A stretch of 64,000 nt of DNA from Gynuella sunshinyii YC6258 (GTDB taxonomy: Bacteria; Pseudomonadota; Gammaproteobacteria; Pseudomonadales; Natronospirillaceae), in contig NZ_CP007142.1 of NCBI RefSeq assembly GCF_000940805.1, positions 3,882,593-3,946,592 on the forward strand. The letters are read 5' to 3'. This document shows positions 1 through 62,800 of the stretch, piece after piece. The translations under genes were made by a program, and so were the position numbers. Numbering within the stretch: the first letter of the stretch is position 1; each line of letters opens with the position of its first letter. A model generated the notes under the pieces. It did no database searches, had not been told where the DNA came from, and worked only from the letters and a program-made list of their open reading frames with translations.

Positions 1-1366
1 ACCGTCATCGGCATTGAATAGTGCCTGCGGACGATGCTCGTCAGCGCAGTATTCCTCGATGATGGCATGAGCATTGGAGCCACCGGCACCGAAAGATGAT
101 AATCCGGCCATACGCGGCCGTTCCTGCATGACGCCATTGATTTCCAGCTGCGGGCGCGGCCATTCAGCCAATGACTGCTGCACCACAAACGGCGTGCTGG
201 CGAAGTCGATTTTCGGATTCAGAACCTCGCTGTGCAGACTGGGTACCAGTTGCTGATGCTGCATTTGCAGGATGATTTTGGTGAGACCGACAATACCGGC
301 AGCGGCTTCCAGATGGCCGACATTGGATTTGACCGATCCCAGCGCGCAGAAGCCGTTATCGTCGGTCTGCCGGCGGAATGCCCGGGTCAAACCGGAGACT
401 TCAATCGGGTCACCGAGTTCGGTGCCGGTACCATGAGCCTCAACATAACTGATGGCACGGGCATCAATGCCGGCCTTGTCGATGGTCCGGGCAATCAGCG
501 CCGCCTGGGCGGTTGGGTTCGGCACTGTATAACCATTGGTCTTGCCACCGTGGTTGACACTGCTGGCGCGGATCAAGGCATAAATGTGGTCGCCATCCGC
601 CACCGCACGATCCATGGGCTTGAGTACGACCGCACCAACGCCCTCGCCGGGAACAAAACCATTACCACCGGTACCGAAACTTTTACAGACACCATCGACC
701 GACAGCATCAGCGCGGTACACAACTCAACGTAGCTGGATGGATGCAGATACATATTGGCACCGCCGGCGATAGCCACTTCGCAGTCGCCGCGCCGCAGGT
801 ATTCGCAGGCTTCGTGAATGGCCGTCAAAGACGCCGAACACATGGTATCGATGGGAATACTCGGGCCATTGAAATTGAACAGGTAGGACACCCGGTTGGC
901 CACGGAACAAAATGAAGTCCGTGGGAATAACTGCTCTCCAGCGGCCCACAGATCCGGTCCGTGAATACCGAAATCATATTTTGACAGCCCGACAAAGACG
1001 CCGACATTGCTGTTGTAGCGACTGTTCAGCTCGGCGCGGGTATAGCCGGCGTCTTCTATCGCGTGCCAGCAGATCTCGATAAAGAGCCGCTCGTGAGGGT
1101 CCATGTTGTAGGTTTCACGCGGCGAAATGGCAAAAAACAGCGGATCGAATTCATCAAAGCCGTTAATAAACGCACCCCAGCGCGAGTACATCTTGCCCTC
1201 GCTCTGGGCCGTGGCCGGATCGGCTTCGAAATAGTCCTGCCAGGCCCAGCGGCTGGCCGGAATTTCGGTCACACAATTGACGCCATTTGCGAGGTTCTGC
1301 CAGTAGGCATCGAGATCATCGGCCATGGGATAACGACCACTGAGACCGATAATGGCAATGGCACTG
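1..1366 (-). other. Module 16 (partial): KS and start of linker
   Basis: KS 1366-49 with active-site Cys at 838-840 in DTMCSAS (Ala replaces the second Ser of CSSS), HGTGT and SNVGHLE histidines, and a terminal EEY. About 16 residues of linker follow to the window edge. Its processing domains are off-window, so its chemistry cannot be read. It follows a methylating module and resembles the KS that follows the other methylating module (module 4) in being of the DTMC type. Confidence 0.9.
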
Positions 1367-4300
1367 TTGGGTTCAACTGTAGGACTGGCTGCTGGTTGCG
1401 CCGGCTGGCTCAGAGTTACCGGCCGGGAGGTGCGAATGGTGACGGCGGTACTGGTGCTGGTTGCCGCCACACTTGGGGTAACTGCTGGCAGGACAGCCGC
1501 TGGCGTTGCCGGGATCGGGTTTTCCAGCCCCAGCACCTTCACCAGAACATCATGCTGAGTGTCGATAAAATGATCGACCAGGGCGTTGACGCTCTGACAT
1601 TCAAACAGCAGCGTGCTGCTGACACCCTCGAAATGTTCGGCCAGGGCATTGGTCAGTTTGACCGCCAGAATGGAATCCAGCCCGTAGGTTTCCAATGCCT
1701 CCGCCGGATTGATCTCGCGGCTGTTCATTTTCAGGGTTCTGGCGATCAGCGCGGCGAAATAGTTGCTGGCGCGATCTCTGAGTCGCCCACCATCGTAGGA
1801 GTGATTCCCTGCCGTGCCAGTGTTCCGGGGCAGTGCTGCCGGCGGTGGTAACACCGGCTCGACCACAGGCACCGCAACCGCCTCAGGTTCTGGCGCTGGC
1901 ATAGATGCAACCGCCGGCGTTGCGGACTGGCTCTGGCGAACCGTACCATCACTGCTGGCGACAATAATCTGCTGCCCCAGGTAATGAGCCGGTTGCACCG
2001 GGAACGTCACCTGATGATATCCTTCACATTTCAACACCCAGTCCCATGCTGAGGATTGCAGCGCCGGAGAACCGGGCAGACGCAGTGCCTTGTCTTCATA
2101 CAACCACCAGCCATCCAGCAAACCAAAGGTCAGATGACTGAACAGCGGGGTGTCACTCATTTCATTGAGGATCAGCACGCCGCCGGTTTTCAGGGCGGCT
2201 TTGACGTTACGCAGGGTGCGGCTGATATTACTGGTGGCATGGAGAACGTTGGTGGCGATCACCACGTCGTAGGCTCCGGGATCTATGCCCTGCTCCGCCA
2301 GCGCCTTGTCAGCGTTGAAAATTGCGCAGTGCAGATAAGGTGCCACGTCACGGTAATGGTCTTCTGCATGTTGCAAAAATGCCTTGGACAGATCGGTATA
2401 ACAGTATTCGGCAATATAGGACTGATACGGCTGTAATGCCTGAAAGACACCGGCACTGGTTCCGCCGGTACCGGCCCCCACTTCCAGAATCCGGATAGCC
2501 CGCTGCGACATGGCATTGTTCTGTAATCTGGGTGCCAGGCAGCTCAACAGCGCTTCGGTGACCTGAAGATTGAAATAATCAGCCACTGGATTGTTCTTAT
2601 AGACCGGTTCCACCAGTTCCATCGATGACTGCGGAAACATCACATCAGTCGCCAGCCGGACACCGGTGAGAATATCGGTCAATGACCGCAGGGTCGCTTC
2701 CATCAACGCTGCCTGAGCGGCCAGCGCCCGATTCCCGGCCCATTGTTGTTTATGGTCATCCCACTCCTGCCACAACTGCCCGGCTCCCGCTGCCACAGCT
2801 GCCTGGGCGGCGGCGGTCAATTGCAGATCACTCTGTGAGTGACTGAGAAAGCCGCCCTTAACCAGGTAATCCATACTTTTATCAAACCACTGCCGATACT
2901 GACCGCTGACCTCTGCCGGCAGCCGTGAAGGCCGGATATAACCGTCCTCAATGACAGGTAATGTGCTCAACTCAGCCATCAATACCCGACATACCAGGGG
3001 TTCGATGGCGTCCATCTGTTCACCCGCGTGCCGGGCCAGCGCCAGTGCATCCGTGTGCTGAACAGATAGATCTTTGGGCAGTGCGGTTTTGATGGCCGTT
3101 TCACCGGGATAGCTGCCGGTGCGTTCGTGAGCAGCGAGGCCGGTCAGACCGGTCGTAGAAGCGGTTTTCATGTAGGCCAGCTGATCGACCGGAGCATTCA
3201 ACAGATTATCCAGCGCTCTCCAGCCATCCTTGGGCTCAATGGAGGCAACCCCAAGAGCGGCCATGCGGTCGCGATATGACTCGGTGGCGACAACACCGAC
3301 GTTGCCCCAGAAACTCCAGTTGATGGTTTTGACCGGACACGACCACTGCCGGGCCAGACGCCGCGACAGCGCATCCTGAAAGACCGAGCCAGCGATGTAA
3401 TTGCATTGTCCCGGTGGCCGGGTAAACGCTGCCAGGGTGGAAAATACCAGCAGAAAATCCAGTGCTTCGCCGGCAAACACGGAGGCCACGGCAATACTGA
3501 CATCCACTTTGGCGCGCAGTCCTTCATGGAACCGGACTTCCTCCATCTGCGCCAGGCTCTGATCACGCAGCACAATTGCGGCATTGACCACGCCACAGAT
3601 ACGGCCATAGCGACGATTGATCTCATCGCGCACCTGCGCCAATGCCTCCACATCACTGCAGTCGGCGCTGAAATATTCCGGTCTTGGGCCAATCCCGGCG
3701 ATAGCATCCAGCTGTCGATTCAGGGTTTCGTCCAATGGCCGCCGCCCTACCCAGATGATCCGGGCCTGATATTTACGGGCCAGATGTTCGGTCCAGGCAA
3801 AACCGATCCCACCGGCACCGCCAATCACCAGGTAGACTCCCTGATGACGGTAAGCCGTTACCGGTGACAACGCGTCAGTGGCCTGCGGCAGATACGGTGA
3901 CAATTGCTGGCGATACCATTGCCCCAGGCGTTGACCGGGTGCGCAACGGTACAGTAAGGGACGACCATACGGATCAAACGGAGCCGCAAACAGGGTTGCC
4001 AGCGGCCAGTCGCCACCATTGGCAAAGCGGCGTTCCAGATCCAGCAGGCGGATGTTCCAGAGTTCATATTCCTTGGCCATGGTACCGATCAGGCCATGCA
4101 ATCCAGACGCCGACAGATCAACCTGTTCGACCTCATGATCGAGTCCCTGAGCGGCAAAGGTGATGATCGTCCAGTTCACCGGGCGAGTACCGTATTCCAG
4201 TGCCAGCATGGCTTTAATCAGACGGAAAAACGCGGTAATGGTGCGATGATGGGCCGCACCGAGACCGGCATCGATGGCCTCGCTGTCATAACCGGGCGCA

Positions 4301-7300
4301 ACCCAGATCAAATGAGTCACCGGCTGATGACGCTGCAACAGTGCCATCAGCGCTTCGACATCATCGGTAAAGTCAATATCGGCGATGCGCACACTCGGAA
4401 AAGTACCGGTGATCAGTCTGCGCACCGGCTCGGTGGCACCGAACAGCAGAGTGCCGGAGCCCGGCGTTACAGAAGATTTGTCCAGTTTTGGGGTTGGCAG
4501 TACCGCCTCCCAGACCGGCAGCGCCAGTAATTCACCCACCAGATCGTCAACTGGCGCGGTGGCGGTTAAAGCTGACACTCCGACGGTATCGAGTACCCGG
4601 GCGCTGAAACCATAGAAACTGGCGAACGTGGTACCGTCCCCGGCCAGAATTTCGATGTTCAGCTTTTGAATATCCTTGCTCGTTCCAGCTTCACGGATAT
4701 GCACCCAGAGTTCCCGACCGGTGGACATCACCGCACTGTCGGCTGCAATGTGCAGTTGTATCCGATCCACAGAAAACGGCAGCACCGGGCGCAGATTACC
4801 ACTGTCACCCTGGCTCAGGTTCATGGCCAGAGTGGCCTGTAGCGCCGAATCCATCAGACAGGGATGCAGCACATAGGTTCCTGCTCCGGTTACCAGAGAT
4901 TCCGGCAACTGTAGTCGTGCCAGTACGCTGGACTGCCCCAGATACACACAGTCAATACCACGGTGACACGGACCATAATCGATGCCCATGGCAGTAAACA
5001 GCTCATAACACTGGGCACCACTGAGTTCACCTTCACCGTGAGCGGCTTTAAGCGCGGCGAGATCCTGAACCGGAGCCGCCGTCAGCGTCTGCAACAGGCC
5101 CTGGCCCTGACTGTGCAACAGTTTTTCGGTGTTGGCATCGCTGTAAATCTGATAATCGATGTGCTGACCGTCTTCGGTGCTCAGACTGATGTGTAATGGC
5201 TGTGGCGGAACCGCAACGGTAAATGGCCGCAGCCAGACCACCTGCTGCAATGTCAATGTCAGCGCTTCCGGCTGTTCCAAAGCAGCGGCTTCGAGTATGG
5301 CGGCACGGGCCATCTCCAGATAGGCCACTCCAGGCAGAACGCCCTGACCATTGACTTGATGATCTGCCAGAAAGAATTCCGAACCGTCAAAGGTGCTGCT
5401 GAAACGCGGTTCAGCAAAGGTAGAAGTATTGCGATGCAGCAGCGGATGCAGGAAGCCGGCGCTACTGACCGCAGCGGTCTTGCCCGCTGAAGGCATAAAG
5501 GCCGCCGTCGGCAGATGATCGGTCACCCAGATCCGCTGACGTGCGAACGGATACAACGGCAGACGGATGATATTGGGGCGTCGCGCCAGCAGATTGTGAT
5601 CCTGATAGAGTTTTTCCCAGCTGACCGTCACACCCTTGCTCCAGAGTTCCACCAGCCGGGTGAATTTGTGGCGTGCCATCCAGGTATCGAGGGTGTCACG
5701 GAGGTCATCATCAGCACTGAAAATGGCGGTGGCACCTTTGAATTCACTGGCCCGGCCACGATAGCCATCATCGATATCGGTATCGCCATCCAGCACCGAC
5801 CTCAGGCGCTGCTGCAAGGTTTCCAGACTGTCAACCACCAGCCCCAGGCGTTCATCCATGGCTTCACGGCCCACCTGCAGGGTATAGGCGAGATCGAACA
5901 GATCCACCTGCGGATGATGTTCGATGAACACCTGCAAATCCCGCACGGCTTCGAGCAAGCGGGTCTCATCCCGAGCTGACAGCAGCACCATGGCGGATTC
6001 CGGCGACACGGCTGAGGGTACAATTTGCGGCTGAGGATATTCCTCAACAATCACATGCGCATTGGCACCGCCGGCACCAAACGAGGAAATCGCCGCAATC
6101 CTCCGCTGCCCGGCCCGCGCCAGGGCCCAGTCACTGAGGGTTTGTTGCACCACAAACGGGGTGCGTTCGAAATTGATGTTGCTGTTGAGGGTCTGCGCAT
6201 GCAGGCTCGGCACCAGCTGCTGATGCTGCATTTGCAGAATGATTTTGGTCAGTCCGGCAATTCCGGCGGCGGCTTCCAGATGACCGATATTGGATTTGAC
6301 CGATCCGAGCGCGCAATAACCGGTTTCCGCCGTATCGGCGGCGAATGCCTGAGTCAGGCCGGTCACTTCAATGGGATCACCGAGCTGGGTACCGGTGCCG
6401 TGAGCCTCGATGTAACTGACATCCCGGGCATTGATGCCGGCGCGGCTCAAGGTTTTACGGATCAATCGTGCCTGAGCGGTGGGATTGGGCACGGTGAAAC
6501 CATTGGTTTTACCGCCATGGTTAATCGCCGAAGCCCGGATCACGGCATAAATACGGTCTCCATCGGCTTCGGCCGCCGCCAGCGGTTTCAGCAGTGCAGT
6601 GCCCACACCCTCGCCAGGTACAAATCCGTCACCTCCTTCGCCAAAACTACGACAAACACCGCGTTGCGACAGCATCTGAGCGGCACTGAGTTCGATATAA
6701 CAGGCAGGATGCAGATACAGGTTGACGCCACCGGCAATGGCCAGTTCGCAGTCGCCACGACGCAGATGCTCACAAGCCTCGTGAATGGCGGTCAGCGACG
6801 ACGAACACATGGTATCGATGGGCATGCTCGGACCATCGAAGTTCATGAAATAGGACAGCCGGTTGGCCAGAGAACTGAACGAGATACGCGGCAACACCTG
6901 TTCGCCGTGTTGCCAGAGGATGGGTCCATAGAGTTCAAAACCGGTTTTGGTCACCCCGGCGAATACCCCTACCCGGCCCTGATGCTGGCGGGCAATCCGT
7001 TCACGGCTGTAACCGGCATCTTCAAGGGTATGCCAGCTGCTCTGCAGAAACAGGCGTTCCTGCGGATCAATATTGGCGGCCTCCAGCGGAGAAATGCCAA
7101 AAAACAACGGATCGAATTCCGCAAAACCATCAATGAAGCCGCCATGTTTACAATAACTGGCACCCAATTCCTGGGCCTGATGGCGGTCCGGATGATAGAA
7201 GCCCTCCAGAGACCAGCGCTCAGCCGGAATTTCACGGATGCAGTCTTTACCTGCAACCAGGTTCTGCCAGTACTCCTCAAGATCAGCGGCCTGAGGATAA

Positions 7301-10300
7301 CGGCCACTGAGACCGATCACCGCAATCGCAGCACCGGCATCGATTGTCGACTGAGACGGGACTGGGGAACGGCGGGATTTCGGTACCGCAGCTTTGCGGG
7401 TTTTGACCACTGTACTGGCCGACAGACCGGTCCAGCGCACACAGGCTTCGCGATGAGCCGAGACAAAATATTCCGCCAGCTGTGCCAGAGACTGATATTC
7501 ATACATCAGGGTTTTCGACAGTTCCCCGAACACCTCACCGAGACGACGGTTCAACTGCGTGATCATGATGGAATCGATCCCGTACTGCTCCAATGCGGTG
7601 TCAATATCGATACGGGCGGTTTTGATCCGGGTGACCTCTGCAAACAGCTGCTTCAGTCGCCGCGCGGTTTTGTCGTACAGGGTGCTGTTATCAATCGCCG
7701 TTTCGATGAACTCGAAGGTTTCCTCGCACTCAGCAGACTCGAAATCCTCTTCCAGTGCTGTTTCGATCATCTGGCCATTCAAGCCGGCAGCGAATTGCTT
7801 CCGCAAACGCGACGAATCCCCTTCCACCACCAGCCATTGACTGCCTTCACTGGCCAATGCCCGGTAAAACGCCTGAAACCCCGCCATGCAAGATAACGGT
7901 ATAATTCCTGTTGCGTCGGTCAATGCCAGCCGGGCATGGTCATCAATCTGCATGCCGCCATCAGCCCATAACGGCCAGTTAATCGCCACGCTGCGACCAT
8001 GGCATTCACCGGCAGCCACCCGCTCATTGCGATGGTGTACGTAGCGATCCATAAAGCTGTTGGCCAGCGCGTAATCGAGCTGCCCGACATTACCGGTGAC
8101 CGCCGTCAGAGACGAAAACACCGCCAGAAAATCCAGTGTAAATGCGCGACTGCTCTGATCGAGATTGATCAGGCCATCCACTTTCGGCGTCAACGTGCCA
8201 TGCATCTGTTCGGGGGTTTTGTTCAGAATCAGCTGATCGGACAGGACACCGGCACTGTGAATAATGCCGTTAAGACCGCCGGTCAGGGTTTGCAGCTCTG
8301 CCATCAGCGCATCAACCGCTTCGCGGTCAGCCACATCCAGGGCGCGATACAGCACCGTAGCACCGGCATCACGCAGAACTTCAAACGCCCGTTCAAGTTC
8401 ATCATTGGCAGCAGAGCGACCACACAGAACCAGCGTCGGCCAACTGGCCTGACGGGCAATCTCACGGGCAAACAATAATCCGAGCCCACCATTGCCGCCG
8501 GTAATCAGATAAACGCCGTGATCCCGCCAGGGCATCTCAGCGGCCGATTGCGGTTCTGTTTCATGCCATTGCGGCCACAGCAGCTGATCCTGATGCAGAC
8601 GGGTAATGGCCATCTGACCGCTCTGCCCGGCCATCGACAGCCACTGCAAGATTCGCTGATGATCGTCTGGCTGATCGGCCAGCAGCAGTTGTCCGGTCAG
8701 CGCCGGATACTCCTGATGCGCCGACAGCAGGCCGCCATACAGCCCGGCCAAAGCCTGATCAGCGTCCTGGCCGTGGATCACGATTTGAATCAAGGTCGGG
8801 GCCTGGGTATCGAGTGCCTGTAACCGGGTCAGCAGCTGTTCTGCATACTGGTGATAGCGTGCAGCAAGGTCATCTGTATCGGCATGCAGGCATTCAATGT
8901 CAGCTTTGGGAAACTGTGCGCTGATGGCCTGCTGCAAAGCCTCTCCGGCACCACACAGCCAGATCAGATGACGATCCGGAATGGCCGCTGGCACCGTGGA
9001 GACCGGCGCTTCCGGCTGCCACTGCAATTGCATCTGCAGTTGTCCGCCGGCTGACAGCGGCATCCAGTATTCCGTGGTTTCAAATGGATACGTCGGAGCG
9101 CTCACCCGGCGCGGCCGGCGGTGCTGATAAAGCCGGTTCCAGTCGATGTCCGCACCGCTGACCCAAGCCTGCGCCAGCAGATCATGGCGGCGCTGTTGCA
9201 GCGCATCCTGAAGCTCATCTGATACGGTTTCCTGGCCGGCAGCCTGACCATGCCAGCACGAGGGAATATCCGTTTGCTGATCCACAAACCCTTGCAGAGT
9301 GCTGATCAACGCCTGCCGATCAGTGGCCACCACGGCCAGCCGGGCATCCATGGCGTTGCGTCCGGTTTGCAAGGTGAACGCCAGATCCGCTAATGACTGG
9401 TCATCGTGGTCGCGCAGATGATTCAGTAACCGCCGGGCATAAACCCGCAGCCGCTCATCGTCGCGGGCTGACAGTACCATCAATACTTCTTCTTGGTGAT
9501 CATTGGTCGCTGCTGCCGGCTGATATTCCTCCAGAATCACATGGGCATTGACGCCACCAAAACCAAAGGAACTCACTCCGGCGCGGCGTGGCAGCGGCTG
9601 GCCATCAGCGGCGGTCAGCGCCTCCCAGTCACGATTTTCGCGGACGATGTAGAACGGACTGTCGGCCAGCTCGATATACGGATTGATGGTGTCGCAATGC
9701 AGGGTTTTGACCAGCGTCCGGTGTTTGAGCTGCAACACCACCTTGAGCACGCTGGCCATGCCAGCCGCCATTTCCAGATGGCCGATGTTGGATTTCACCG
9801 AACCGACGCCACAGTAATTGGCCGCAGGCATGGTGCTGCCAAACTGCTGATACAGATGTTTAAACGCTTTTTTGAGGCCGTTGATCTCAACCGGATCACC
9901 GAGTTCGGTGCCGGTGCCGTGGGCTTCGATATAACTGACCGTGGCCGGATCGATGCCGGCACGCTGATACACCGTCTGCAACAGCGCCGCCTGAGCATTG
10001 GGATTGGGTGCGGTCAGGGAATTGGCACGACCACCGTGGTTTTCACCGCTACCACGAATCACCGCATAAATATGGTCGCCATCGGCTTCGGCAGCCGCCA
10101 GCGGCTTGAGCACCAGCATGCCCACCCCTTCACCACGGACATAACCGTTGGCCTGATCGGAAAAGACCTTGCAACGGCCATCTTCACAGAGCATACCGGC
10201 CTTGTTGAAACTGATATAAGCCGCCGGATACACCAGGGAATTGACGCCACCGGCAATGGCCATGGAGCAGTCCCCCGATTCAATCGCCCGAATGGCCCGG

Positions 10301-11280: not shown

Positions 11281-14200
11281 AGTTGACTCGTCTCTTGGGT
11301 CGTTGGCAGCACGGGCGTGGTAACGGTGTTGGAGTGCTGCGAAACCGGGATATTGGTAAACGTCTGGTGAACGGATGACGGCGTGGCATGGGTGCGGGAA
11401 AACAACAGCGACTCAATCCGCCCGATATCGCCATGAAGAACTGCGGTCTGGCTGCCACCGCAGCGCAGACAGTCATGGAATACCCGCAGTCCGGTTGCGG
11501 CGGGCATGATTTTCATCCCGGTACGCAGCTCCATCAGTCGCTGATCTTCGGCGCTGATGCCCATGCCTTCGCTTTGCCATAAAGGCCAGTTGATGGAAAT
11601 GGCGGTGCCATGGCGCAGCCCCTGTCTTTGCAGGTGGTTGCGATAGTCGGCCCAGGCATCCATAAAACCATTGGCGGCACCGTAGTCCGCCTGACCAACA
11701 CTGCCAAAAGCGCCGGCCAGGGAGGAAAACAATGCGATAAATTCGAGTTCAAGGTCGCGACTGGCTTCGTCCAGATGAATCAGGCCGGTGACCTTCGGTG
11801 CCAGCACCGCCTCCAGTTCACGGCTGTCTTTGTGGCGCAGCAGGGCGTCCTGAATTACTCCGGCACAATGCAGGATGGCGGTCAGTCTGCCGTGATCCGC
11901 CACCACCGCACGGATCAGTTCACGGCTGTCTTCAGCACTGCTGAGGTCGGCACGGCGGTACTCAGCTCTGGCACCATGACCACGCAGCGTCTCAATCAAG
12001 CCATCAATGCGATGATCCGGCTGTGACCGGCCAACCAGAATGATGCTGCTGTGAGTCAGCGTGGCGGCAATATCGGCGGCCAGCAGCTGTCCCAATCCGC
12101 CGGCACCACCGGTGATCAGATACACCCCGCCTTCACGCCAGGCCAAGGTGTCTGCCGGCCCTTGCACTGGTAGCACCGGCATGGGTTGCCAGTCCTGCCA
12201 ATACAGCACCTGATCACGCTCGCGCAAATCGGCATAGGGCCGTTCGGCTGCCTGTTGCAGATATTCGGGCAGCTGCGCCACAGAGGCATCATCGGTGCTG
12301 AGTGCCAGCAACTGGGTGCGCAGCTTGGGATATTCCTGGGCAGCGCTTTTCAGCAGTCCGGAAAGCCCCTGAAACAGGCTTTGATGGGGTTTTGACTGAA
12401 TCACTACCAGCTGAATCAACTGATTAGCGGACGTCTCTTGAGTCCACTGCTGAATCAAGGCCAGCACATCGGCGCAGGCCTGCTGATAGGCCATAGCGAT
12501 ATTTTCGGTCGCTGCGGGCAGAGTCAGCCCCTGACAATCGACTTCCGGCAGCTGCCGGTTCAGTGCGGTGATCAGCCGGCTGACCGGAAACTCACCAAAA
12601 CTGCACAGAATCACATGATGGCTGGATGCTCTGGCCACTGCTTCTTCATGCGCAGCGGACGCCACTTCAACCCACCTGGGTTGCAGTAACAACGTTTCAG
12701 CTTCGACCGCAGGCCGGGCCAGCACAGGCACCGGTGCCTGTGCCACAGGGCTTTCAATCGTGGCGGTGCTGTCGATGGTCGTCGTGCCGTCGAACCGCCG
12801 GCAGGTGAATTTACGAATCGCCACACAGACATTGCCGGCGTCATCGCACAGATCCATATCGAGGGTCAGATTGCCATCGCGTCCGCCATTCCCGTTGCCG
12901 GTGCCATGACGGCTTTGGCGTATCCACACCCACATGTCCGCCTGGCACGGCCGGATCAGCGCCAGACTGCCCAGAGCAAACGGCAGACCGGGGCCTGAAC
13001 CATCGGCATCACTGTTTCTCAGGGCAAATCCAATGGACGCCTGGAACGCCGAGTCCAGCAATCCCGGATGCAGCACATAACCCGGCTCGGCAGTGAGCAG
13101 CTCCGCAGGCAATTGCAGCCGCGCCAGCACACCCTGCTGACCGGTATACAGCGCCTGAATACCGCGATGCGCCGGGCCATAGTTGAGGCCGGCAGAAGCA
13201 AATAACTGATAACAGCGCCCGGCATCGATCACGCCATCCCGACAGTGCTGTTGCAGAGCGGCAATATCGAGCGCAGACGGCAGTTCGGCCACATCCAGAT
13301 CGATACGGCCCTGACAGTGAAGCTGTTCCCCATCGCTGCACACTTCAAAGCCCAGCTGTTCATGGCTCATCGCCGTCAGACGGATATGAATGTCATCGTT
13401 ACCCGTGGCGAAAAACGGTGTCAGCCAGACCACGTTATGCAAGGTCAGCGAGCGTGGCTGATCGGGATTATCGAGTTCCAGCGCCCGGGCGGCGGCGGCC
13501 CTGGCCATTTCCAGATAGGCGGCACCGGGCAGCACTGCACGGCCGTGCACACGGTGATCATTGAGGAAGAACTCGCTGCCCCGGAAACGCGAACTGTAAC
13601 GCTGTTGCAGCAGTGATGAAGTATTGCGATGCAACAATGGATGCAGTCTGGTTTCGGTCTGCTGTAACGGGGCTTCCGCACTTTCGCGCACGATCCAGTA
13701 ACGTTCATGGGAAAACGGATATACCGGCAGTTCCAGGGTCCGCAGTCCGGGCTGGCCAAGCCAGTACTGCGACCAGTCGATTTCCAGGCCCTGTACCCAG
13801 AGCTCCAGCAGTTTGTGGAACTTGCCGCGCTGCATCCACTTGTCTACGGCTTCACGCAGTTCCTCATCCTCGGTAAACGCGCTGACCGTGGCCCGTCCCT
13901 GACGGACCTGGCCGCGATAGCAGTCTGCCAGGCTGCTTTCTCCGTTCAGCAGAGCCTGTAACTGGCCCAGCAACTGCTCGTAACTGCTGACCAGCAGCCC
14001 CAGACGCTGTTCCATGGCATCCCGCCCAACCTGTAAGGTGTAGGCCAGATGCGGTAGTTGAGTTTCGGGATGATCCTGCAGGTAATCGTGCAACTGACGG
14101 ATGCGGGCCTGCAATTCAGCTTCGGTACGGGCCGACAGCAGTACTGCCAGCGGAGCGGTCGAAGCCGTTTCGGTATGGGTTTCGGGTGCCTGATATTCCT

Positions 14201-23795: not shown

Positions 23796-23850
23796 ATTTC
23801 ACCTTTCAGACTGACTGAGGTTTTACCCTTCGCCGGTTATGATTCCTGGG
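23796..23850 (-). promoter_or_regulatory. Intergenic gap with ribosome binding site
   Basis: The 55-bp gap between the two large genes carries GAAAGGTG (complement of 23800-23807), four bases before the ATG at 23795. No inverted repeat with a T-run and no promoter-like pair of boxes is seen, so the genes are probably co-transcribed with independent initiation of the second. Confidence 0.8.
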
Positions 23851-50800: not shown

Positions 50801-53800
50801 TGGTGCTGACTGCGGCCACGGTAAATGTTGCCGGAACCACTGCGCCCGCCACTGGCGACCTCAGTGAACGGTTCGGCCAGCAGTTGTTGCAACTGTTGTT
50901 GCAGTTCCGCCACCGAACCGGTTACCAGCGCCAATCGCTGCTCCATCGGTTCGCGACCGATTTGCAGGGTATAGGCCAGTGAGGCCAACGGGGTCCCGGG
51001 ATGAGCATCGAGGAAATCCAGCAGTTCAATGCACTGCTGCCGCAGCCGGTCGGTATTTCTGGCTGACAGCAACACCAGCGCCCGATCCAGACTCATCGGA
51101 GCGGCTATTGTTGGTGGCTGATATTCTTCCACCACCACATGGGCATTGACACCGCTGAAGCCAAAGGAGCTGACCCCGGCGCGGCGGGGCAACGGTCGGC
51201 CCTGCTGATCAACCGGTGGCTGCCACGGTGTAGTTTCGCGCACCAGATATAACGGCGTGCCATCCAGTTCCACCAGCGGATTGACCGTTTCGCAGTGCAA
51301 CGTCGGCACCAGAGTCTGATGTTGCAGTTGCAGCAGTACTTTGATGACCCCGGCCACGCCAGCGGCCAGTTCCAGATGGCCAATATTGCTTTTGACGGAT
51401 CCAAGACCACAGCGGGCGGCCTGCTCCGGTGTGGCGGATCTGGCCATGGCTTTCCAGGCGGCCTTGATGCCGTTGATTTCCACCGGGTCTCCGAGGGGTG
51501 TCCCGGTACCATGGGTTTCGATGTAACTCAGGTCTTCAGCGTGGATGCCGGCCTTGTTCCAGGCCTGCTGCAATACCGCAGCCTGAGCCTTGGGATTGGG
51601 TGCAGTCAGGGAGTTGGCGCGGCCGCCGTGATTGACGGCAGTGCCGCTTAACAGCCCGTAAATATGATCGCCATCGGCTTCGGCAGCACTCAGGGACTTG
51701 AGCGCCAGCATGCCGACACCTTCGCCCCGGACATAGCCATTGGCGGCAGCGGAAAAGGTTTTGCAGCGGCCGTCTTCACTGAGCATGCCGGCTTTATTGA
51801 AGCTGACGTAAAAATCCGGGCTGGCCAGAGTGTTGACACCCCCGGCAATCGCCAGCCGGCAACTGCCTTCGGTAATGGCCTGAACCGCGTGATGAATCGC
51901 TACCAGCGAACTCGAACAGGCGGTTTCCACCGGCTCGCTCGGACCATGCAGGTTCAGGAAATAGCTGATGCGGTTGGGGCCAACAGACGGCACCAGACCG
52001 GTTGCGGAGTAGCCTTCGATGGTACTGTTGGCGCGCACCAGCAGTTTGTCGTAGCCGGTGCTGGTGGTCCCGACGAACACCCCGGTATCACTGCCGGACA
52101 GGCTTTGGGCAGAATAACCGGCATCTTCAATGACTTTCCAGACGTACATCATCAACAGCCGTTGCTGCGGGTCCATCCATTCGGCTTCACGCGGGGAAAT
52201 ATTGAAAAATCCGGGATCGAACTCATCCATGCCCTCTATAAATCCGCCCCATTTCACGCTGGTTTTGTTGGCATCGCTGTGCGGATCACCGTACCAGGCC
52301 TGCCAGTTCCAGCGTTCCGTTGGAATCTCACTGATACAGTCACGACCGTTGCGCAGATTGTCCCAGTATTCGGCCAGATCACGGGCTCCCGGAAAACGGC
52401 CACTGATACCGATCACCGCCACCGGTTCATTACTCTGACGGGGCTGGGACACCGGACTGCGACCGGGCAGACGCCACTGCCGCGCCACGTTGCCAGTCTG
52501 ATTGCGCACACTGGCCACCCGCTCGATGCGCGCGGGTGCGGTAGCTATAGCATGACCGGCCGCCGGGGCAAACTGATCCCGATGTTCAGTCATCAGATAG
52601 GCGGCAATGGCAGCAATGGTTGGGTATTCGAAAAACAGCGCCGGATTGAGGTTCAAGCGGTATTCACGATTCAATGCCCCGGCCAGACGGGTCAGGGCAA
52701 TGGAATCAAGCCCGAAAGCACTCAGTTCCTCTTCGGCATCCACTTCATGCTCAGCAATCTCCAGCAGCTCGCTGACGATAACCCGCAGCTGCTGAATCAA
52801 CGGTCCGTGATCCATGGGCGGAACTGTTTCGCCAACAAGGGATTCACCCACAATGACTTCGGGCTCAGTCACTCCAAAGCACTGGGCATGCTCTGTTAAC
52901 AGATAGCCGGCCAGACGGCCCAGCGTGGCATATTCGAAGAACAGCGCCGGATTCAGATTCAGGCGATATTCGCGATTCAGCGCACCTGCCAGACGGGTCA
53001 GGGCAATGGAGTCAAAGCCGAAACTGTTGAACTCTTCATCGACATCCAGGTCAGCCGGATCCACTCCCAGCAGCTCAGCGGCCAGATTTCGGAGTTGATG
53101 CTGTAGCGCCTGCAACTGTTCCGTATCAACGCTGTTGGATGTAGTCGCTGCGGACGCCGCCGGCGGTGCAAAATCGATCCGGGGAGACAGTAAGGTAGAA
53201 GTGATTTGATCAAGCTGGCCTTCGAGTACCAGCAGCTGATCAACGCCGGCCTCCAGGCCCCGGTAGAACGCCACCAGACCGGTCTGTGTGCTCATGGCCA
53301 CCAGACCGGTCCGTTGTTGCAGCAGCCGTTCGCTGTGTTCATCGAGCTGCATGCCGCCATCACGCCACAACGGCCAATTGATGGACAGAGTATGACCATG
53401 GCGTAACTGTTGGCGTTGCAGATCGTTACGGTGACGGGCAAACACATCCATAAAGCCATTGGCAGCGGCGTAGTCAGCCTGACCGGCATTGCCCAAAGCG
53501 CTGGTCATGGATGAGAACAGCACGATGAAATCCAGTTCGACATCGCGGCTGGCCTGATCGAGATTGAGCAGACCGGTCACCTTGGGTGCCAGTACCTGCT
53601 CTATTTCGGCATCGGTTTTCGAAGCCAGATAACTGTCCTGCAATACCCCGGCGCAATGAATGATGCCGTGCAGGCCACCATAATCATGACAAAGGCGATC
53701 GATCAGCGCCTGAACCGCCTGAGCATCGGTGACATCCAGACTGACGTATTCAACCCTGGAACCCTGCTGTTGCAGGGCCTGCAAAGCTGCGCCAGGTGTC

Positions 53801-56800
53801 GCACTGCGACCGGTCAGGATCAGTCTGGCTCGTGGTGCATGGCGCATAATTTCCTGACTGAACAGTAGACCCAGACCGCCAAGCCCACCCGTCAGCAGAT
53901 AAACCCCTTCTGGTCGCCAGGGCATCGCTGGCACGTTTGCGACGGCTGGCAAAGTCTGCCAGTCATGCTGCCAGCGCTGCTGATCACGGTAGCGGATATG
54001 AGTGCTGGTATGAGACTCTGCACGGTTTTCGTGCAACCGCTGTTGCAGGATAGCGGCCTGAATATCGGCTTCAACGGCAATTAACTGAGTGCGAAGACGA
54101 CTGTATTCCTGAGCAGCGGTTTTGAGCAGGCCGGCAATCCCGGCAAAGTAACCGGAGTGCTCATCTTCAAAAATCACCACCTGTACCAGTCGTTCAACAC
54201 TGTTGGTTCTGGCAAGTGTACTGATCAGGGTTTTGACCAGACCCTGATAACGCTGACCGATGTCTCCGCTGTGGCGTTGAATCACCTGCACCTGGGTGTG
54301 TGGATCTTTCTGAGCCGTCAATGCCTGGGCCAGTTCAGCCGTTGGATGACACAGTACGATCAGGGTTTCCAGGGCGGCATCGGTTGTAACAGCGGTGACT
54401 GGTTTGGGCTGCCACTGCGGTGTCAGCAATAACTGTCCGATCTGTTTCTGTGGTTGTGCCGGCAGCAGTCGGCACCCGCTCAAACGGGCACAGATGCGGC
54501 CGTCATTGTCAAACAGGGTAACGGTAAATGGTTGGGTGGGATGAAGATCATCGGCATCCGTTTCCAGCAATGCCCAGGTTTTGGCGGGTAAACTGTGATA
54601 GACCTGCAACTCATCCAGCGCATACGGGATATGGGCCTGGCCATTTTGTTCGAACAGCGCCAGAGATGCCTGTAACGCGCCATCGAGCAGCCCCGGATGC
54701 AGTTGATAGTCATGCTGCGGATCAACCATCACCGGTAATGTCAGTTCTGCCAGTACCTGTCGCTTACCTTTCCACAAGGCCGAAACCACTCTATGGCTTG
54801 GTCCATAGTTCAAGCCCTGACGGGTAAACACGTCGTAGAACTGTTCGGTGTTTTGAGAATGTGGCGATAACTGCGACCGCAATTGCGATAGATCGAACGG
54901 TGCCGGAACCATGGTGGTCGCGTGTTCAATCACGGCTTCGCCTTCACAGAACACCCGCGCCTCGGCATCGTCGGAATACACGCCAAAGATCAAACGGTCA
55001 CTGCCGTCCGTGCCAACCTGTCCGGCTTGCAGGCGGATTTCGAGACCTCCGGCAAACGCCGGTTGCAGCCAGACAACATGTTGCAGAGTCACGGTGGTGG
55101 TCTGCTCAGCAGGATCGAGATCCATGGCCTGAATCACCGCCATGCGGATCATTTCCAGATAAGCAGCAGCCGGAAAAACCCCGCGACCATTCAGCTGGTG
55201 ATCCGCCAGAAAGGGTTCATCGCCACTGAAATGGCTGTTGAAACGCTGTTCGAACACTGTTGAGGTGTTTCGGTGCAGCAATGGATGCAGCCATGCCTGC
55301 CCCGCCAGGGTTTGATCAGACTGCGACGCCCCGGCTTTGAACCAGCAGCGCCGGCGGGCAAATGGATAAGTGGAAACCGACAGTCTCTGCGGTTGGCCTT
55401 TGTCATCATTGTGATAAAGCTGATACCAGTCGATGGCCAGACCCCGGCACCAGAGTTCGGCCAGTCGGGCGTATTCGCGCTGTTGCAGCCATTGATTCAG
55501 AGAGCCGGAAAATTCTGCATCATCATGCAACGATTCCAATGCTTCTCTACTCTCGCGGGCCTGACCGGTGAAAGTTTCAATCGAATGTTCACCACCGCTC
55601 AGATAATCACTCAACCCGGTTTTGAGGCTTGCTACGGAATCGACGATCAACGCCAGTCGATGCTCCATGGCATCGCGGCCAACTTGCAGGGTGTAGGCCA
55701 GATTGCGCAGATCAACGTGATTCTGTTGCACATACGTCAGCAGGTTTTGGGCATATTCCTGCAACCGTTCCGGCTGTTTGGCCGACAGCAGTATCAGTAC
55801 CGGTTCAGCAGACTCAGCTTTGGTGATTGTGCACGCGGCTGGCAGATATTCTTCCACCACGACATGGGCGTTAACCCCCCCGAAACCGAACGAGCTGATG
55901 CCGGCCCGTCTGGGTTGTAACTGGCCGGCGTTGTTTTGACGTGGAACCCAGGGGGTGTTTTCACGCACCAGGAACAACGGCGTGTCATCCAGTTTTATCA
56001 ATGGATTCAGGGTGTCACAGTGCAGACTGCGCACCAGGGTGTTGTGCTTCAATTGCAGCAGCACTTTGATCACCCCTGCCACACCAGCCGCCAGTTCCAG
56101 ATGACCGATGTTGCTTTTGACCGATCCCAGACCACACGGCTGAGTTTCACCACCGGTAGCCAGCTGTCGATATGCCGAAGTGATACCGGTGATTTCAATT
56201 GGATCTCCCAGGGCAGTTCCGGTGCCATGGGTTTCGATGTAGCTCAGGGCTTCTGAGGCGATACCCGCTTTTTGCCAGGCTGAGGTCAGTACCGCTGCCT
56301 GCGCTTTGGGATTGGGTGCGGTCAGCGAGTTGGCCCGACCGCCGTGATTGACTGCACTGCCGCTGATCAGACCATAAATATGATCACCATCGGCTTCTGC
56401 CGCTGCCAGCGGTTTGAGCAGCAGCACCCCGATACCCTCACCACGAACATAGCCATTGGCAGCCTGGGAAAACGGTTTGCAGCGGCCATCTTTACTGAGC
56501 ATGCCGGCTTTACTGAAGCTGATGAACTGATCCGGACTGACCAGGGTATTCACACCACCGGCAATGGCGAGTTTGCACACGCCCTGTTGCAGTGCCTCAA
56601 CCGCCCGGTGAATGGCGACCAGTGAGCTGGAACAGGCCGTTTCCACCGGTTCGCTGGGGCCATGAAAATTCAGCAGAAAACTGACCCGGTTCGGTCCTAC
56701 AGAAGGCACCAGGCCGGTTGAGGAATAGCCTTCGATGCTTTCACCGGAATGACTCAGCAGAGTGCCGTAATCAGAGTTCCCGACACCGGCAAATACCGCA

Positions 56801-59800
56801 GTATCACTGCCTGCCAGGCTCTGACAGGCATAACCCGCGTCTTCGATGGCATGCCAGACATGCATCATGAGCAGCCGCTGCTGGGGGTCCATCAATTGGG
56901 CTTCGTGGGGTGACAGGTTAAAAAACTGGGGATCGAATTCATCCACGCCATTGATAAAACCGCCCCACTTGATATTGGTCTTGTTGCGGTCGGTCAGCGG
57001 ATCGCCGTAATAGTCCTGCCAACGCCAGCGGTCAGCGGGTATTTCGCTGATACAGTCACAGCCGTTGACGAGATTGTCCCAGTAACCATCAAGATCGTCG
57101 GCTCCCGGAAACCGGCCACTGATGCCGATGATGGCAACCGCTGCGGTGGTGGTCTGGTTGATGATCGGACTACGGATGGCATCCAGACGCCGGAACCGAG
57201 GGGCTTCAGCGCGGATGGCTGTCGTGTCAGGGTTAGGCTCCACCACGACAGACGCAGCAACAGACGTGGATAGTGAGTTGTGCGGCTGCACAGATACGGC
57301 ATCGTGATGTTCTGCCAACAGGTGTTCTGCCAGCTGCGCCAGAGTCGGAAACTCGAAAAACACCACCGGACTCAGGCTCAGACCATATTCCTTGTTCAGC
57401 TCTCCAGCCAACCGGGTCAGGGAAATGGAATCAAAGCCGAAGGCGTTCAGTTCTTCGTCCACATCCAGATCAATGGGATCGATATGTACCAGTTGGCTGA
57501 CGATGACTTTCAGGCGACGGATGACCCCATGGGTGCCGTCACTCTGGCCGGTTTCCGGGGCTGATGTCGCCTGAGGTTGTTTCTCAATCCTGGGCTTTGG
57601 CAGCCGCTGATCCGCAATCTCGCTGGCGGCGATACCCAGTACGCCCTCACGACGCAGTACGGTTTGTTGTATACGTGCCAGTTCACCTTCCACCACCAGT
57701 ATCCGGGTGCTCTTGCTCGCCAGTCCGAGATAAAACGCGTTCATCCCGGTTTCGGTTCTCATGGCAGTCATGCCGGTGCGTTGTTGCAGCAACTGCTCGG
57801 TTTCCGCTTCGACGCTCATGCCGCCTTCCCGCCATAGCGGCCAGTCAAATGCCAGGGTCAGACCATGCCGCTGACCGAGGTTCCGCAGCGCATTTCGATG
57901 ATCGACAAAGGCATCCATAAAACCGTTGGCCGCGGCATAGTCAGCCTGACCGACACTGCCCAGGGCACTGGCCAGCGACGAAAACAGCACCAGAAAATCC
58001 AGCTCCATCGTCCGGCTGGCTTCGTCCAGATTGAGTAATCCGGTTACTTTGGGGGCCAGTACCTGTTCCACTTCGGCGGTGGTTTTGGCCAGCAGTCGAC
58101 CATCCTGCAACACGCCGGCACAGTGCAGGATGCCATGCAGGCCGCCGTAACTCTGGCGCAGGTGCAGCATTAATGCCTGAACCGCCGCGCGGTCCGTCAC
58201 ATCCAGCTGGACATATTCGACCTGACCGCCATATTTGCGTAAGGCGTTGACCTGAGCCGGATCAATGGCCGAGCGTCCGGTCAGAATCACTCTGGCCCCC
58301 GGTGACTGGGTCAGAATTTCGCAGGCAAACATTCTTCCCAACCCACCTGCGCCACCGGTAATCAGATAGACACCTTTATGACGCCAGGGTTTGGCGGACA
58401 ATTCGATCTCTTCCGACAGTGGCTTCCAGGTATGAACCTGCCGTTGCCGGTTCTGGTAGCGAATGCGGTCTGAGCCGGGCTGATGAAGATTGGCGGACAG
58501 CATCGCGTACAGTTGTGCAGCATCATCGACAGCGGCGATTTCCAGCATTTGAGTGGTCAGTCGGCTGTATTCCTGCTCCGCGGTCTTGAGCAGGCCGGAT
58601 AAACCGGTCAGCAGGTGCGCGTGATCGACTTCGTCAGTGCTGAACACCACCAGTTGCAGGAAGATCGTGTCAGATCCGTTACTTTTCAGGGTTTGCTGCA
58701 GAATCTGCAACAGCCCGTTGACCATTTCCCGATAGCGGTCATCGGTGTCGGTGAGTTCAACCGGCACGTTCAGAGACATGACAGTCTGTCCCTGTGGCAG
58801 GTGTGCTGTCAGTGCGGTTTCCAGCTCCGGTGCTGAGCCGCACAACACAATGATCGAGTGGTCTGTCGCCGGCATCGCCACGGTCGGTGACTGCTCCTGC
58901 CAGTGGGATGCGAGCACCAGATGTTCGACAGATGACTGCTGCGGACGATCCAGTACTCTGGAGGTATAACCACGAATTTCGGCACAGACCCGGCCCGATG
59001 GATCACACAGATCAATATCCAGACGCTGGAGCGTATTATTTTGATGATTGCCGGTGCGCTTCATCTGCCGCACCCAGGCATACATTTCCGGCTGATGACA
59101 GGCCCCATGGACAGTAATGCTGTCGATACTGAACGGCAGTGCCGGTTTCAGGTGCTCCTCATCCAGACTGCCATCGTCATTGAGATTCATGGCAATGGAG
59201 CCCTGAAGCGCGCAGTCCAATATGCTGGGATGCAGGACAAACTGCCTGGCATCAGCACTGATGCTCTCAGGCAGCTTGAGGCTGACCAACGACTGATCCT
59301 GACCGGCGTGAATCCCGGTGATGCCCTGATGTGCCGGACCATAGTTGAGACCGGAACGGGTAAACGCCTCATAACATTGCTCAGGGGTATAGATGGCGCG
59401 GTTACACTGATCCCGCAAGACTGCCAGATTGAGTGTCTCCGAGGCCGCTTTACCGGGATCGCTGAGGTACTCAGCCTTACCCTGGGCGTGCAGAACCTCG
59501 CTCTCACCGGCACCACTGATGACGACGAAATCAATCGACTCCGCTGTCTGAGGATGCAGCTCTACGGTGACCTGCTGCGGTGGGTCCGTCACCACAATCG
59601 GACTGACCCAGACCACATTGATCAAGCGGACACAGCCGGGATCATCGGTTTCAAGGGCCTGACACAGCGCTTCTCTGACCATTTCCAGATAGGCCACACC
59701 GGGAAGAACCGGTTGTCCATGCACCCGGTGGTCATCCAGGAAAAACTCATGACCATCAAAGGTCGAGGTAAATCTCTGCGCCTGAAACGTGGAGACATTG

Positions 59801-62800
59801 TGGTGCAACAAGGGATGGTGGATCGCAAAGGCAGTTTGTGATTGCCGAACACCTTCCACCAGTTCAGTAAACCAGTAGGTCTGTCTGGCAAACGGATAAG
59901 TTGGCAGGCTCATGCGCCGTGGATGAACATTGCCATACAGCCTGGCCCAGTCGAGGTCGACGCCATGGACCCAGCTTTCCAGCAGACGGGAATAATTTTT
60001 GTCGGCAAACCAGTTGTTCAGTCGGGTTTCCGGCTCTTCATCGGCCGACAAATCCAACAGCTGGTATGGATCAAAATACTTGGAGCGAGTGGTACTGATC
60101 AACAGCTCACCATCGGTCACCGTACCATCCAGAAAAGCCTGCAATCGTTGCACGGCTTCCGCCATGGTACTGACCTCAGTGGCCAGCCTGGCAGTCATGG
60201 CTTCGCGCCCGGTCTGCAAGGTGTACACCATGGATGCCAGATTCTGATCGGTCAGTTCCCGCTCTTTGATAGTATCGATGAGTTGCCCGGCCTGCTGTTT
60301 GAGGCGTTCTTCTGTGACCGCCGACAGCACAAGCAGGTACGGTCCGCTGAATGATGGCTGAGCATCCGTGGCAACATATTCTTCGAGAATGGCATGGGCA
60401 TTGGCACCGCCGGCACCAAAGGATGAAACGCCGGCCCGCCTCGGATACTCCACCGGTTGACCATCGATCACGAGCTGCGGCCGTGGCCATTCGGCCAGAC
60501 CTTGTTGCAGCACAAAAGGCGTCTTGTCAAAACGGATATTCGGGTTGGTTTGTTCGGCATGCAGACTGGGCACCAGCTGGCCATGCTGCATTTGCAGAAT
60601 GATTTTGGTCATCCCGGAAATACCGGCTGCCGCCTCAAGATGACCAATATTGGACTTTACCGACCCCAGAGCACAAAACTGCAGATCCCGGGTATGGCGC
60701 GAAAATGCCTGCGCCAACCCGCGAATTTCAATGGGATCTCCCAGTGCCGTACCGGTACCATGGGCCTCCAGATAACTGATACTGCGAGCATCGATACCGG
60801 CCCGCTCAAGGGTTTCAGCGATCAGTTCGGCCTGGGCCCCCGGACTGGGCACGGTATAACCATTGGTACGACCACCATGATTGATCCCGGTTGCCAGCAC
60901 CGTGGCATAAATATGGTCGCCATCCGCTTCTGCACAGGACAAGGGCTTCAGCAATACCGCCCCCACCCCTTCACCTGGGACAAAACCGTCACCACCGGCA
61001 CCAAAGCTTCTGCATTCACCCTGGGCAGACAACATGCCCATGGCACAGAGATCGACATAGGATGACGGATGCAGGTACAGGTTAACCCCACCGGCGATAG
61101 CCATCTCACATTCACCGCGTCGCAGATGCAGACAAGCCTCGTGCAAAGCCGTCAGCGACGACGAACACATGGTGTCAATCGGCATGCTGGGACCGTGCAG
61201 ATCCAGCAGATACGACACCCGGTTGGCGATCGAACTGAACCAGGTCCGTGGCAGCATGGTTTCGCCAAGACGCCATAATTCCGGTCCGTACAGACCAAAA
61301 CCACTTTTGGTCACGCCGGCAAATACGCCGACTTTTTGAGCATGCAGGCGCTTGATGGACTGTCGGGTGTAGCCGGCATCTTCAATCACCGCCCAACAGG
61401 TTTCGATAAACAGGCGTTCCTGCGGATCCATGCACAGTGCATCTTTGGGACTGATATTGAAAAACAGCGGATCAAAATCGGCAAAACTGTCAATCATGCC
61501 GGCCCATTTGCTGTAGCTTTTCCCCTCCACCATCGCTTTGTCCCGATCAGCCTGATAAAAGTCGTTCAACGACCAGCGCTGGGCTGGAATTTCACCGATA
61601 CAGTTGGTGCCGGATACCAGATTGCGCCAGAACTGCTGGAGATTTTCAGATTGGGGATAGCGACCACTGAGGCCGATGATGGCAATCGGCTCCGCAAGAT
61701 CCTGTGCTGGTGCGAGTACCGGCTGAACGTGATCCTCAACAGCAGACGTTAAGGGATCTTTAATGTCCGCTGGACACTCACCGGCCGTCCATTCAATGCA
61801 CTGATCGGCATACTCGGAGACGAAAAAACCGGCCAGTTCTGCCAGGGTGAAATATTCAAAAAACAGCGTTTTGGGGATATCGCCAAAAATGTTACCCAGT
61901 TGCAGGTTCAAGGCGGAGATCAGAATGGAATCAATGCCATAATTTTCCAGTGACACATCACCACGTATGGAAGCCGTTGGCATTCTGGCAGCATCAGCAT
62001 ATAACTGGATGAGTTTTTTCAGTGTCTGCTGTTGCAGGTTTCCGGCAACCGGTTGGACACCGGATACCGACGACAGGGATTCGGCATATTGCGGCAACGT
62101 TGTCTGTTTCAGCACCGCCTGCCGTATTTGAACCGCATCTCCCTCGAACGCCAACACCTGTTGTGCTTCGACAGCCAGGGACCGATAAAAAACATCAAAT
62201 CCGACACTCGCCCGCATCGGCACCATGCCAAGCTGCTGCCGCATCTGCTGCCGGGTCTCATCGTTGACCTGCATGCCTTCGGATTGCCACAACGGCCAAT
62301 TGATCGCCAGGGTATGACCACTGCGCTGGCCAGCGGCCAACAAGCGGTTGCGGTAACCCGCAAAGACATCCATAAAACCATTGGCAGCGGCGTAGTCCAC
62401 CTGCCCGGTATTGCCAATAGCGCTGGTCATGGAGGAAAACAGCAGGAAGAAGTCCAACGGTTGATGACGGGTGGCTTCATCCAGGTACACAAGTCCATCG
62501 ACCTTAGGCTTGAGTACCGAGGTAAATTCTTCTGGAGTTTTGCGGATAATAAAATTGTCGTGAATGACGCCGGCGCAATGCAATATGCCATTAATGCCTC
62601 CCCAGCGCTTAGAGACGGTCTCCGCCAGTTGCTGCCAGCCTTCGGCGTCACCGCTATCAAGTTGAAAGTACACCAGCTCAATGCCGTCCTTGCGTAGCGT
62701 TTCGAGTATCGAATTCACACGCTGTTGATCGGAACGGCCGGTCAGAATAACAGTGCCCTGTGTTAACGAGGTGCAGATTTCTCCGGCAAAAAGGCGCCCA

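Follow-up and report, generated by a model that had tools for sequence, protein, structure and literature searches.

A trans-AT polyketide synthase with two types of ACP and two types of KS

The 64,000-nucleotide stretch of the Gynuella sunshinyii YC6258 genome considered here (NZ_CP007142.1, positions 3,882,593 to 3,946,592; hereafter the window, numbered from its first nucleotide) encodes a modular polyketide synthase (PKS) rich in acyl carrier protein (ACP) and ketosynthase (KS) domains. A sequence-only reading of this stretch had claimed that the sequence type of each ACP predicts the type of the KS that follows it and does not follow the KS of its own module. We report that the ACP does follow the downstream KS, in the window and in unrelated clusters alike, and that it scarcely follows the KS of its own module.

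The PKS genes bearing the ACP/KS pairs all lie on the minus strand and are all giant: one is whole (open reading frame (ORF) B, 11277–23795) and two are cut by the window edges (ORF A, 23851–63999, open at the edge, and ORF C, which starts with the ATG at 11280 and runs off position 1). We regard the long ORFs on the plus strand as shadow frames of the coding strand. A domain search of the window found 16 ACPs; 15 KSs stand behind an ACP. The enzyme is a trans-acyltransferase (trans-AT) PKS: no GHSxG AT motif is listed in ORFs A–C, no acyltransferase family was found at E ≤ 1e-5 in the 16 inter-domain stretches of the window, and the hallmarks of such systems are present (module 12 is bare, module 10 is split over two genes and ACP3 is a tandem).

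Compared by published architecture only, the PKS is very probably the lacunalide (lcn) PKS of G. sunshinyii YC6258 (PMC11260071), for which the literature gives the record accession CP007142. The five published points that were looked up all agree, namely an ACP-less KS1 at the start, KS6 preceded by KR-ACP and KS13 by a bare ACP, a DH-KR-ACP-KS14-KR-ACP-KS15 stretch and a KS24 behind an N-terminal tandem ACP (KR, ketoreductase; DH, dehydratase).

ACPs were classed as F-type (FGFDS or FGLDS) or Y-type (YGIDS or YGLDS), and KSs by an ETAC or a DTMC active-site motif; module contents are those given by Pfam, and all coordinates refer to the minus strand. The F-type ACPs are followed by ETAC KSs: ACP2 (57304–57567; FGFDS, SPVVFFE; DH-KR module) by KS3 (55867–57141); the tandem pair of the DH-KR module 3, ACP3a (52885–53148, the first of the two) and ACP3b (52579–52839; FGLDS, NPALFFE), by KS4 (51142–52425; FGFSG); ACP7 (33817–34080; DH-KR) by KS8 (32347–33651); ACP8 (30616–30879; DH only) by KS9 (29152–30426; without VPSVGPNR); ACP9 (26056–26319; DH-KR) by KS10 (24556–25854; RASSLTAP); ACP11 (17946–18209; DH-KR) by KS12 (16443–17783); and ACP13 (11038–11298) by KS14 (9544–10833). 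ACP13 stands at the start of ORF C, with a hidden Markov model envelope extending just upstream of the ATG, and the DH-KR of its module sits at the end of ORF B.

The Y-type ACPs are followed by DTMC KSs: ACP1 (61807–62067; YGIDS, PKTLFFE; KR module) by KS2 (60397–61689); ACP4 (46699–46959; YGIDS, NSALLFD; DH-KR-methyltransferase (MT) module) by KS5 (45247–46536); ACP5 (42979–43239; KR) by KS6 (41521–42813); ACP6 (38434–38694; DH-KR) by KS7 (36973–38268; FGIGG, without LYLHP); ACP10 (22590–22850; split module with a weak DH-like domain) by KS11 (21111–22382); ACP12 (15621–15881; no processing domains) by KS13 (14214–15497); ACP14 (7450–7710; KR) by KS15 (6058–7329); and ACP15 (1552–1812; YGLDS, SSTLLFE; DH-KR-MT) by KS16 (70–1362; DTMCSAS).

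The ACP type thus matches the type of the next KS at 15/15 junctions (7 F-type to ETAC, 8 Y-type to DTMC), a match with a chance of 1/6435 under these totals. By contrast, it is independent of the own-module KS over modules 2–15, where concordant and discordant modules balance (7/14; 3/4 vs 4/3, Fisher p = 1): module 14, singled out in the sequence-only reading for its ETAC KS and Y-type ACP, is discordant, and modules 4, 10 and 12 show this same combination. Separate phylogenies of the window domains are congruent, with the 7/8 split supported at 100/99 in the ACP tree and at 100/100 in the KS tree; on the ACP tree, the downstream-KS label requires one change and the own-module-KS label six. 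The accompanying motifs are looser than had been described. FGAGG occurs in only 4/8 DTMC KSs (the others have FGIGG, FGEGG, FGEGG and FGTGG), LYLHP in 6/8 and DTMCSSS in 7/8; VPSVGPNR and RANSLTAPN are each found in 6/7 ETAC KSs, KTLxxE in 6/8 Y-type ACPs and a strict PxLFFE in 5/7 KS-proximal F-type ACPs.

ACP sequence follows the downstream KS within and beyond the window

To extend the comparison, we collected 57 other junctions from the same genome and 140 external junctions from 55 of the 80 best loci kept from a scan of genome contigs, a junction being an ACP at most 160 residues upstream of a KS in the same ORF. The KS matches (84 own, 234 external) yielded 79 and 198 full-length KSs and then 72 and 153 junctions; 13 external junctions were excluded as possible cis-AT by the GHSxG pattern, and these (12 DTAC KSs and one DTLC) are too few for a contrast. 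The genome is a single 6.48 Mb contig with 91 KS-family matches, and the 84 KS-model matches in the stretches of it that were analysed lie mostly at 3.76–4.06 Mb and 3.09–3.17 Mb, a heavy assembly-line load.

In Mantel tests on whole sequences, ACP distances correlated with those of the downstream KS (p = 0.0005) at r = 0.78 in the window, 0.49 in the rest of the genome and 0.61 for external between-locus pairs, against -0.06, 0.18 and 0.20 for the own-module KS (tests needing the latter covered 13/15, 42/57 and 78/140 junctions, the last from 43 loci). The trees tell the same story. Mapped on the KS tree (212 junctions), the motif of the upstream ACP requires 34 changes vs 99 after shuffling (0/500 shuffles as low). 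For the 121 KSs with an own-module ACP, the label of that ACP requires 52 changes vs 56 shuffled (51/500 as low) and that of the upstream ACP 17 vs 57. Conversely, the ACP tree requires 31 changes for the downstream KS class vs 72 shuffled (0/500 as low) and 40 for the own-module KS class vs 40.5 (240/500 as low). Whole-sequence ACP-KS coupling therefore generalises beyond the window. That the pattern in the window arose by chance had in its favour that there are only 15 junctions and two types; the odds for the window, the shuffled downstream labels and the Mantel tests refute it, and we regard its probability as negligible.

Nor do the pairs trace back to a handful of modules copied recently within the cluster. 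The modules are repetitive, and the tandem ACPs are near-alike in protein from helix II to helix III, with 77% DNA identity over 146 bases. However, no two places in the lcn region are at least 80% identical over 250 bp. Of 347 matches, the 40 with the highest scores each cover a KS and show only 69–75% identity, so the pairs are not recent copies; moreover, the pattern persists between loci of different phyla. Recent duplication, which we consider very improbable, is ruled out by the lack of matches at that threshold.

The first letter of the ACP motif is a local marker, helix III a transferable one

As a general code, the F/Y letter fails. Among the 140 external junctions, 9/10 KSs with an ETxC active site follow a Y-type ACP (Fisher p = 1 over the rows with F or Y): the ETxC KSs stand after F once and after Y nine times, and the xxMC KSs after F five times, after Y 35 times and after another letter five times. 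The first letter is a local marker only. In the same genome outside the window, all eight ACPs with a motif starting with F precede KSs of neither class. Three of these lie later in the same assembly line (G000:C1:3858631, 3866116 and 3873778); they have FGFDS and a helix III PAVFF and precede a third type of KS, with FGMSG and neither ETxC nor xxMC (the active-site motif, printed for one, is NTACSSS). The F-type is therefore not specific for ETAC KSs. When 398 genomes of the phylum were searched for ETAC-like KSs, three had matches at E ≤ 1e-140, the genome of the window among them.

Two other features of the ACP do separate the two KS classes externally, namely the third letter of the motif, the x of GxDS (F vs not F, p about 2e-8), and helix III, which carries either a P or xTL (p about 5e-9). 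We also examined a later held-out set, made up of 10 loci on 8 plasmid records and in two genomes, for which the motif rule also accepted TL one position earlier. In this set, 4/4 ETxC KSs followed a P-type ACP, and the nine xxMC KSs followed xTL in seven cases, another motif in one and an unparsed ACP in one. Two KSs (GPSVAVETAC, confirmed as ETAC, and GPSVAVDSMC) were classed by reading the rows, as was a junction wrongly flagged by the GHSxG filter on a plasmid that we take to be of the thiomarinol type, and the counts given here depart from the automatic tally for that reason; three further rows, all after P-type ACPs, have an unreadable KS class and stand outside the ETxC and xxMC counts. 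Taken over everything outside the window, including the held-out set, 14/15 ETxC KSs follow a P-type ACP, the lone exception being an ETTC KS behind a carrier resembling those of nonribosomal peptide synthetases, and 55/67 xxMC KSs follow xTL (the rest: 2 P, 9 other, 1 unparsed). P vs xTL in helix III is thus a transferable marker of the class of the next KS.

The word 'predicts' needs qualification all the same: inference from the KS back to the ACP works well, but the forward direction is not binary. The 54 external P-type ACPs precede ETxC KSs in 10 cases, xxMC KSs in two and other KSs in 42, and the 53 xTL ACPs precede xxMC KSs in 39. In the rest of the genome, 16/16 P-type ACPs precede other KSs, and nine xTL ACPs precede xxMC KSs.

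The ACP is the segment most tightly tied to the next KS

The natural unit had been proposed to run from the processing domains through the ACP into the next KS. We compared the segments upstream of each KS by their reliability-corrected correlation with it (own genome / external). The ACP came first (0.77 / 0.82), above the KS flanking subdomain (0.46 / 0.48), the segment preceding the KR (0.47 / 0.39), the DH (0.49 / 0.29), the KR (0.35 / 0.37) and the upstream KS (0.22 / 0.12). When both were measured on one set of modules with a KR (37 own, 52 external), the ACP reached 0.70 / 0.68 and the KR 0.32 / 0.33. Given the KR and domain content, the ACP-KS coupling was still 0.64–0.72, while the KR-KS coupling given the ACP and domain content was -0.49, 0.00 (own) and 0.13 (external), none significant; in the window, the KR correlated with the downstream KS at r = 0.06 (11 modules only). 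Likewise, KR and ACP correlate at 0.33–0.47 vs 0.68–0.76 for ACP and KS. When the nearest ACP in another locus was taken, its KS partner was within the closest 10% in 50/89 cases, compared with 36/89 for the nearest KR and 19/89 for the nearest upstream KS. The ACP is thus tied to the next KS more tightly than are the KR, the DH or the KS flanking subdomain. Since module numbers differ between segments and the linker and subdomain align poorly, the place of KR and DH in this ranking is secure and that of the flanking subdomain less so.

These data bear on the possibility that the ACP type serves as no more than a proxy of module chemistry, the processing domains setting both ACP and KS type. 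In the window, F/ETAC pairs end DH modules without MT and Y/DTMC pairs end KR-only, methylating, bare and split modules; the exceptions are module 6 and, with its weak DH, module 10. Domain content and KS correlate there at r = 0.53. Against this stands what is seen among modules of identical content. In the external DH-KR modules (3 of 36 rows, with other ACP motifs, being excluded), P precedes a KS without M in 15/15 cases and xTL a KS with M in 17/18 (p = 1.5e-8), and among the 50 DH-KR modules of all sets the ACP-KS coupling is 0.72, or 0.70 given KR and DH sequence. The ACP separates KS classes among modules of identical content, and the carrier is therefore not a mere stand-in for the domain list; within DH-KR modules, it is more informative than that list. 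We consider the proxy explanation rather unlikely; finer chemistry (stereochemistry or a trans-acting enoylreductase) may separate the DH-KR modules.

Several observations weigh against a special tie between ACP and downstream KS. The external set was picked by KS patterns favouring [DE]T[MA]CSSS. DH, KR and the pre-KR segment are coupled to the KS at r = 0.25–0.49, the KR effect given the ACP is 0.18 among the 50 DH-KR modules (p = 0.047), and domain content, which accounts for little in the larger sets (r = 0.10 and 0.19), accounts for more in the window. Outside the window, a weak link between the ACP and its own-module KS persists once the downstream KS is accounted for (0.16 in the external set, p = 0.0015; 0.12 in the own genome, p = 0.04). 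Finally, xTL ACPs stand before KSs without M in 14/53 external cases and 7/16 cases in the rest of the genome, and 2/45 external xxMC KSs are preceded by a P-type ACP. As the coupling of the processing domains exists, the larger unit that has been published is not wrong; its ACP-KS end is the tightest part, with KR and DH tied more loosely and the KR adding little once the ACP is known.

Probable co-inheritance of the ACP and the downstream KS

What has to be accounted for is that ACP and next KS pair, that the own-module KS hardly takes part, that the pattern is general and that it exceeds the coupling of other segments. In all likelihood, the ACP and the downstream KS are co-inherited as a pair through segment exchange during assembly-line evolution. 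Segments would have been swapped at sites that follow the KS and, with less sharp limits, at others between the processing domains and the ACP; a donor ACP would arrive together with the KS that accepts its cargo, and the pair would be retained since the KS probably gates the intermediate delivered by its ACP. The KS as gatekeeper for the intermediate of the upstream module is a published view.

A stronger proposal, which we find doubtful, is that the ACP and the downstream KS form a true indivisible unit, selected at chain transfer by a docking or cargo-presentation code, with the processing domains recombining more freely; the sites of the code would be GxDS, the +3/+7/+11 face and position +20 (relative to the serine). 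Another explanation is direct recognition, in which residues of ACP helices II and III and the surface or gating loops of the downstream KS co-evolve for docking at chain transfer, mismatched pairs being selected against. The coupling of the ACP is indeed stronger from helix II on (r = 0.57–0.64 for the C half vs 0.35 for the N half), with +20, -6, +11, +7, -2, -29 and +3 as the top columns. Under a residue numbering of AcpP that we assume, +20 and +11 would be Asp56 and Glu47. These AcpP residues touch FabF (PMC7138838), and the RANSLTAPN and FGFGG motifs of the KS appear to correspond to the two FabF gating loops. Simulations of mupirocin ACPs give the X of GxDS and helix III a further role in shaping the acyl groove (PMC6619796). 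Furthermore, the coupling skips the ACP-KS linker (r = 0.01–0.18), and ACP-KS coupling exceeds that between the KS and its adjoining flanking subdomain. The linker, however, is too poorly aligned to be informative (reliability 0.11–0.22), and the FabF-contact columns as a set show no enrichment (p = 0.37). Along the KS, the residual coupling is small and diffuse (best 12-column block, 0.15), and it peaks just before the docking patch, yet also in stretches without a known interface role. On balance, a direct recognition code is unlikely to be the source of the pairing, and we favour co-inheritance.

Relation to published work

The pairing of ACP and next KS is an already published rule, and the present work is its rediscovery with a local marker and a modest refinement. 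In an analysis of 526 ACPs from 33 assembly lines, ACPs of the same module type clade together, and the downstream KSs of one ACP type clade together whereas the upstream KSs do not (review PMC6164871). Our finding is the same in kind, the ACP clades matching downstream and not upstream KSs; unlike in the passage on the 526 ACPs, the ACP-KS coupling is measured here above that of KR, DH and flanking subdomain. The remark that the signal is visible in the carrier itself is correct but was already in print, in that analysis and in the clade-specific ACP logos of a study of ACP:KR recognition in the bacillaene PKS, in which activity was confined to cognate ACP:KR combinations among those tested (PMC8549798). 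In the bacillaene PKS, the ACP signature serves KR docking; here, the KR-ACP coupling is lower than that between the ACP and the downstream KS. The domain-pair ranking and the helix III P/xTL marker were not met in the passages covered, and may still be in print.

The module has been described as logically ending with the next KS, with recombination sites behind KSs (PMC7930024, PMC11260071). Exchange units whose cut lies behind the KS flanking subdomain (Mabesoone et al. 2024, PMC11260071) move the ACP and the next KS together, and lcn units that were moved or deleted still gave products. In the same work, foreign non-matching KSs with their own ACPs were functional, with a signal 3- to 50-fold lower; a match therefore helps but is no strict requirement. 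Should a match between ACP and KS be needed, engineering should move both together, and a cut between KR and ACP may serve; P vs xTL in helix III would then be a quick check for compatibility and for lines that are broken or hybrid. Engineering already makes use of the general rule; what could be acted on is how the domain pairs rank and how the DH-KR modules split.

Minor observations on individual modules and records

Module 6 (38695–41520) is the sole DH-KR module with a Y-type ACP and a DTMC KS. None of its inspected KR and DH features offers an explanation. The KR stereotype was rejected as a cause: V-x-x-D is kept, by eye, in 10/12 window KRs including that of module 6 (module 11 has M-x-x-D, and module 4 departs from the pattern).

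Module 10 (22851–23795) is divided between two genes, and the start of ORF B is weakly DH-like (E 4e-8 and 9e-7), with no HxxxGxxxxP motif listed in it; this domain may be inactive or a cyclising relative. The KRs of both DH-KR-MT modules (46960–51141 and 1813–6057) are atypical, with IGG for TGG and a tyrosine motif without the following asparagine, and the DH of module 4 has S for the P of its motif. The KRs of modules 4 and 15 and the DH of module 4 may be inactive or of different specificity.

ACPs involved in beta-branching carry a conserved Trp flag in helix II, after the serine. By inspection, 0/16 window ACPs have a W among the ten residues that follow the serine; a VEWVN-type helix is seen in ACPs elsewhere in the same genome. 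Finally, in the record NZ_CP083716.1 (L121), the 807-kb Bacillus velezensis 'plasmid' pDMB05-1, the PKS genes lie next to miaA and hfq, which suggests that it is a mislabelled chromosome piece.

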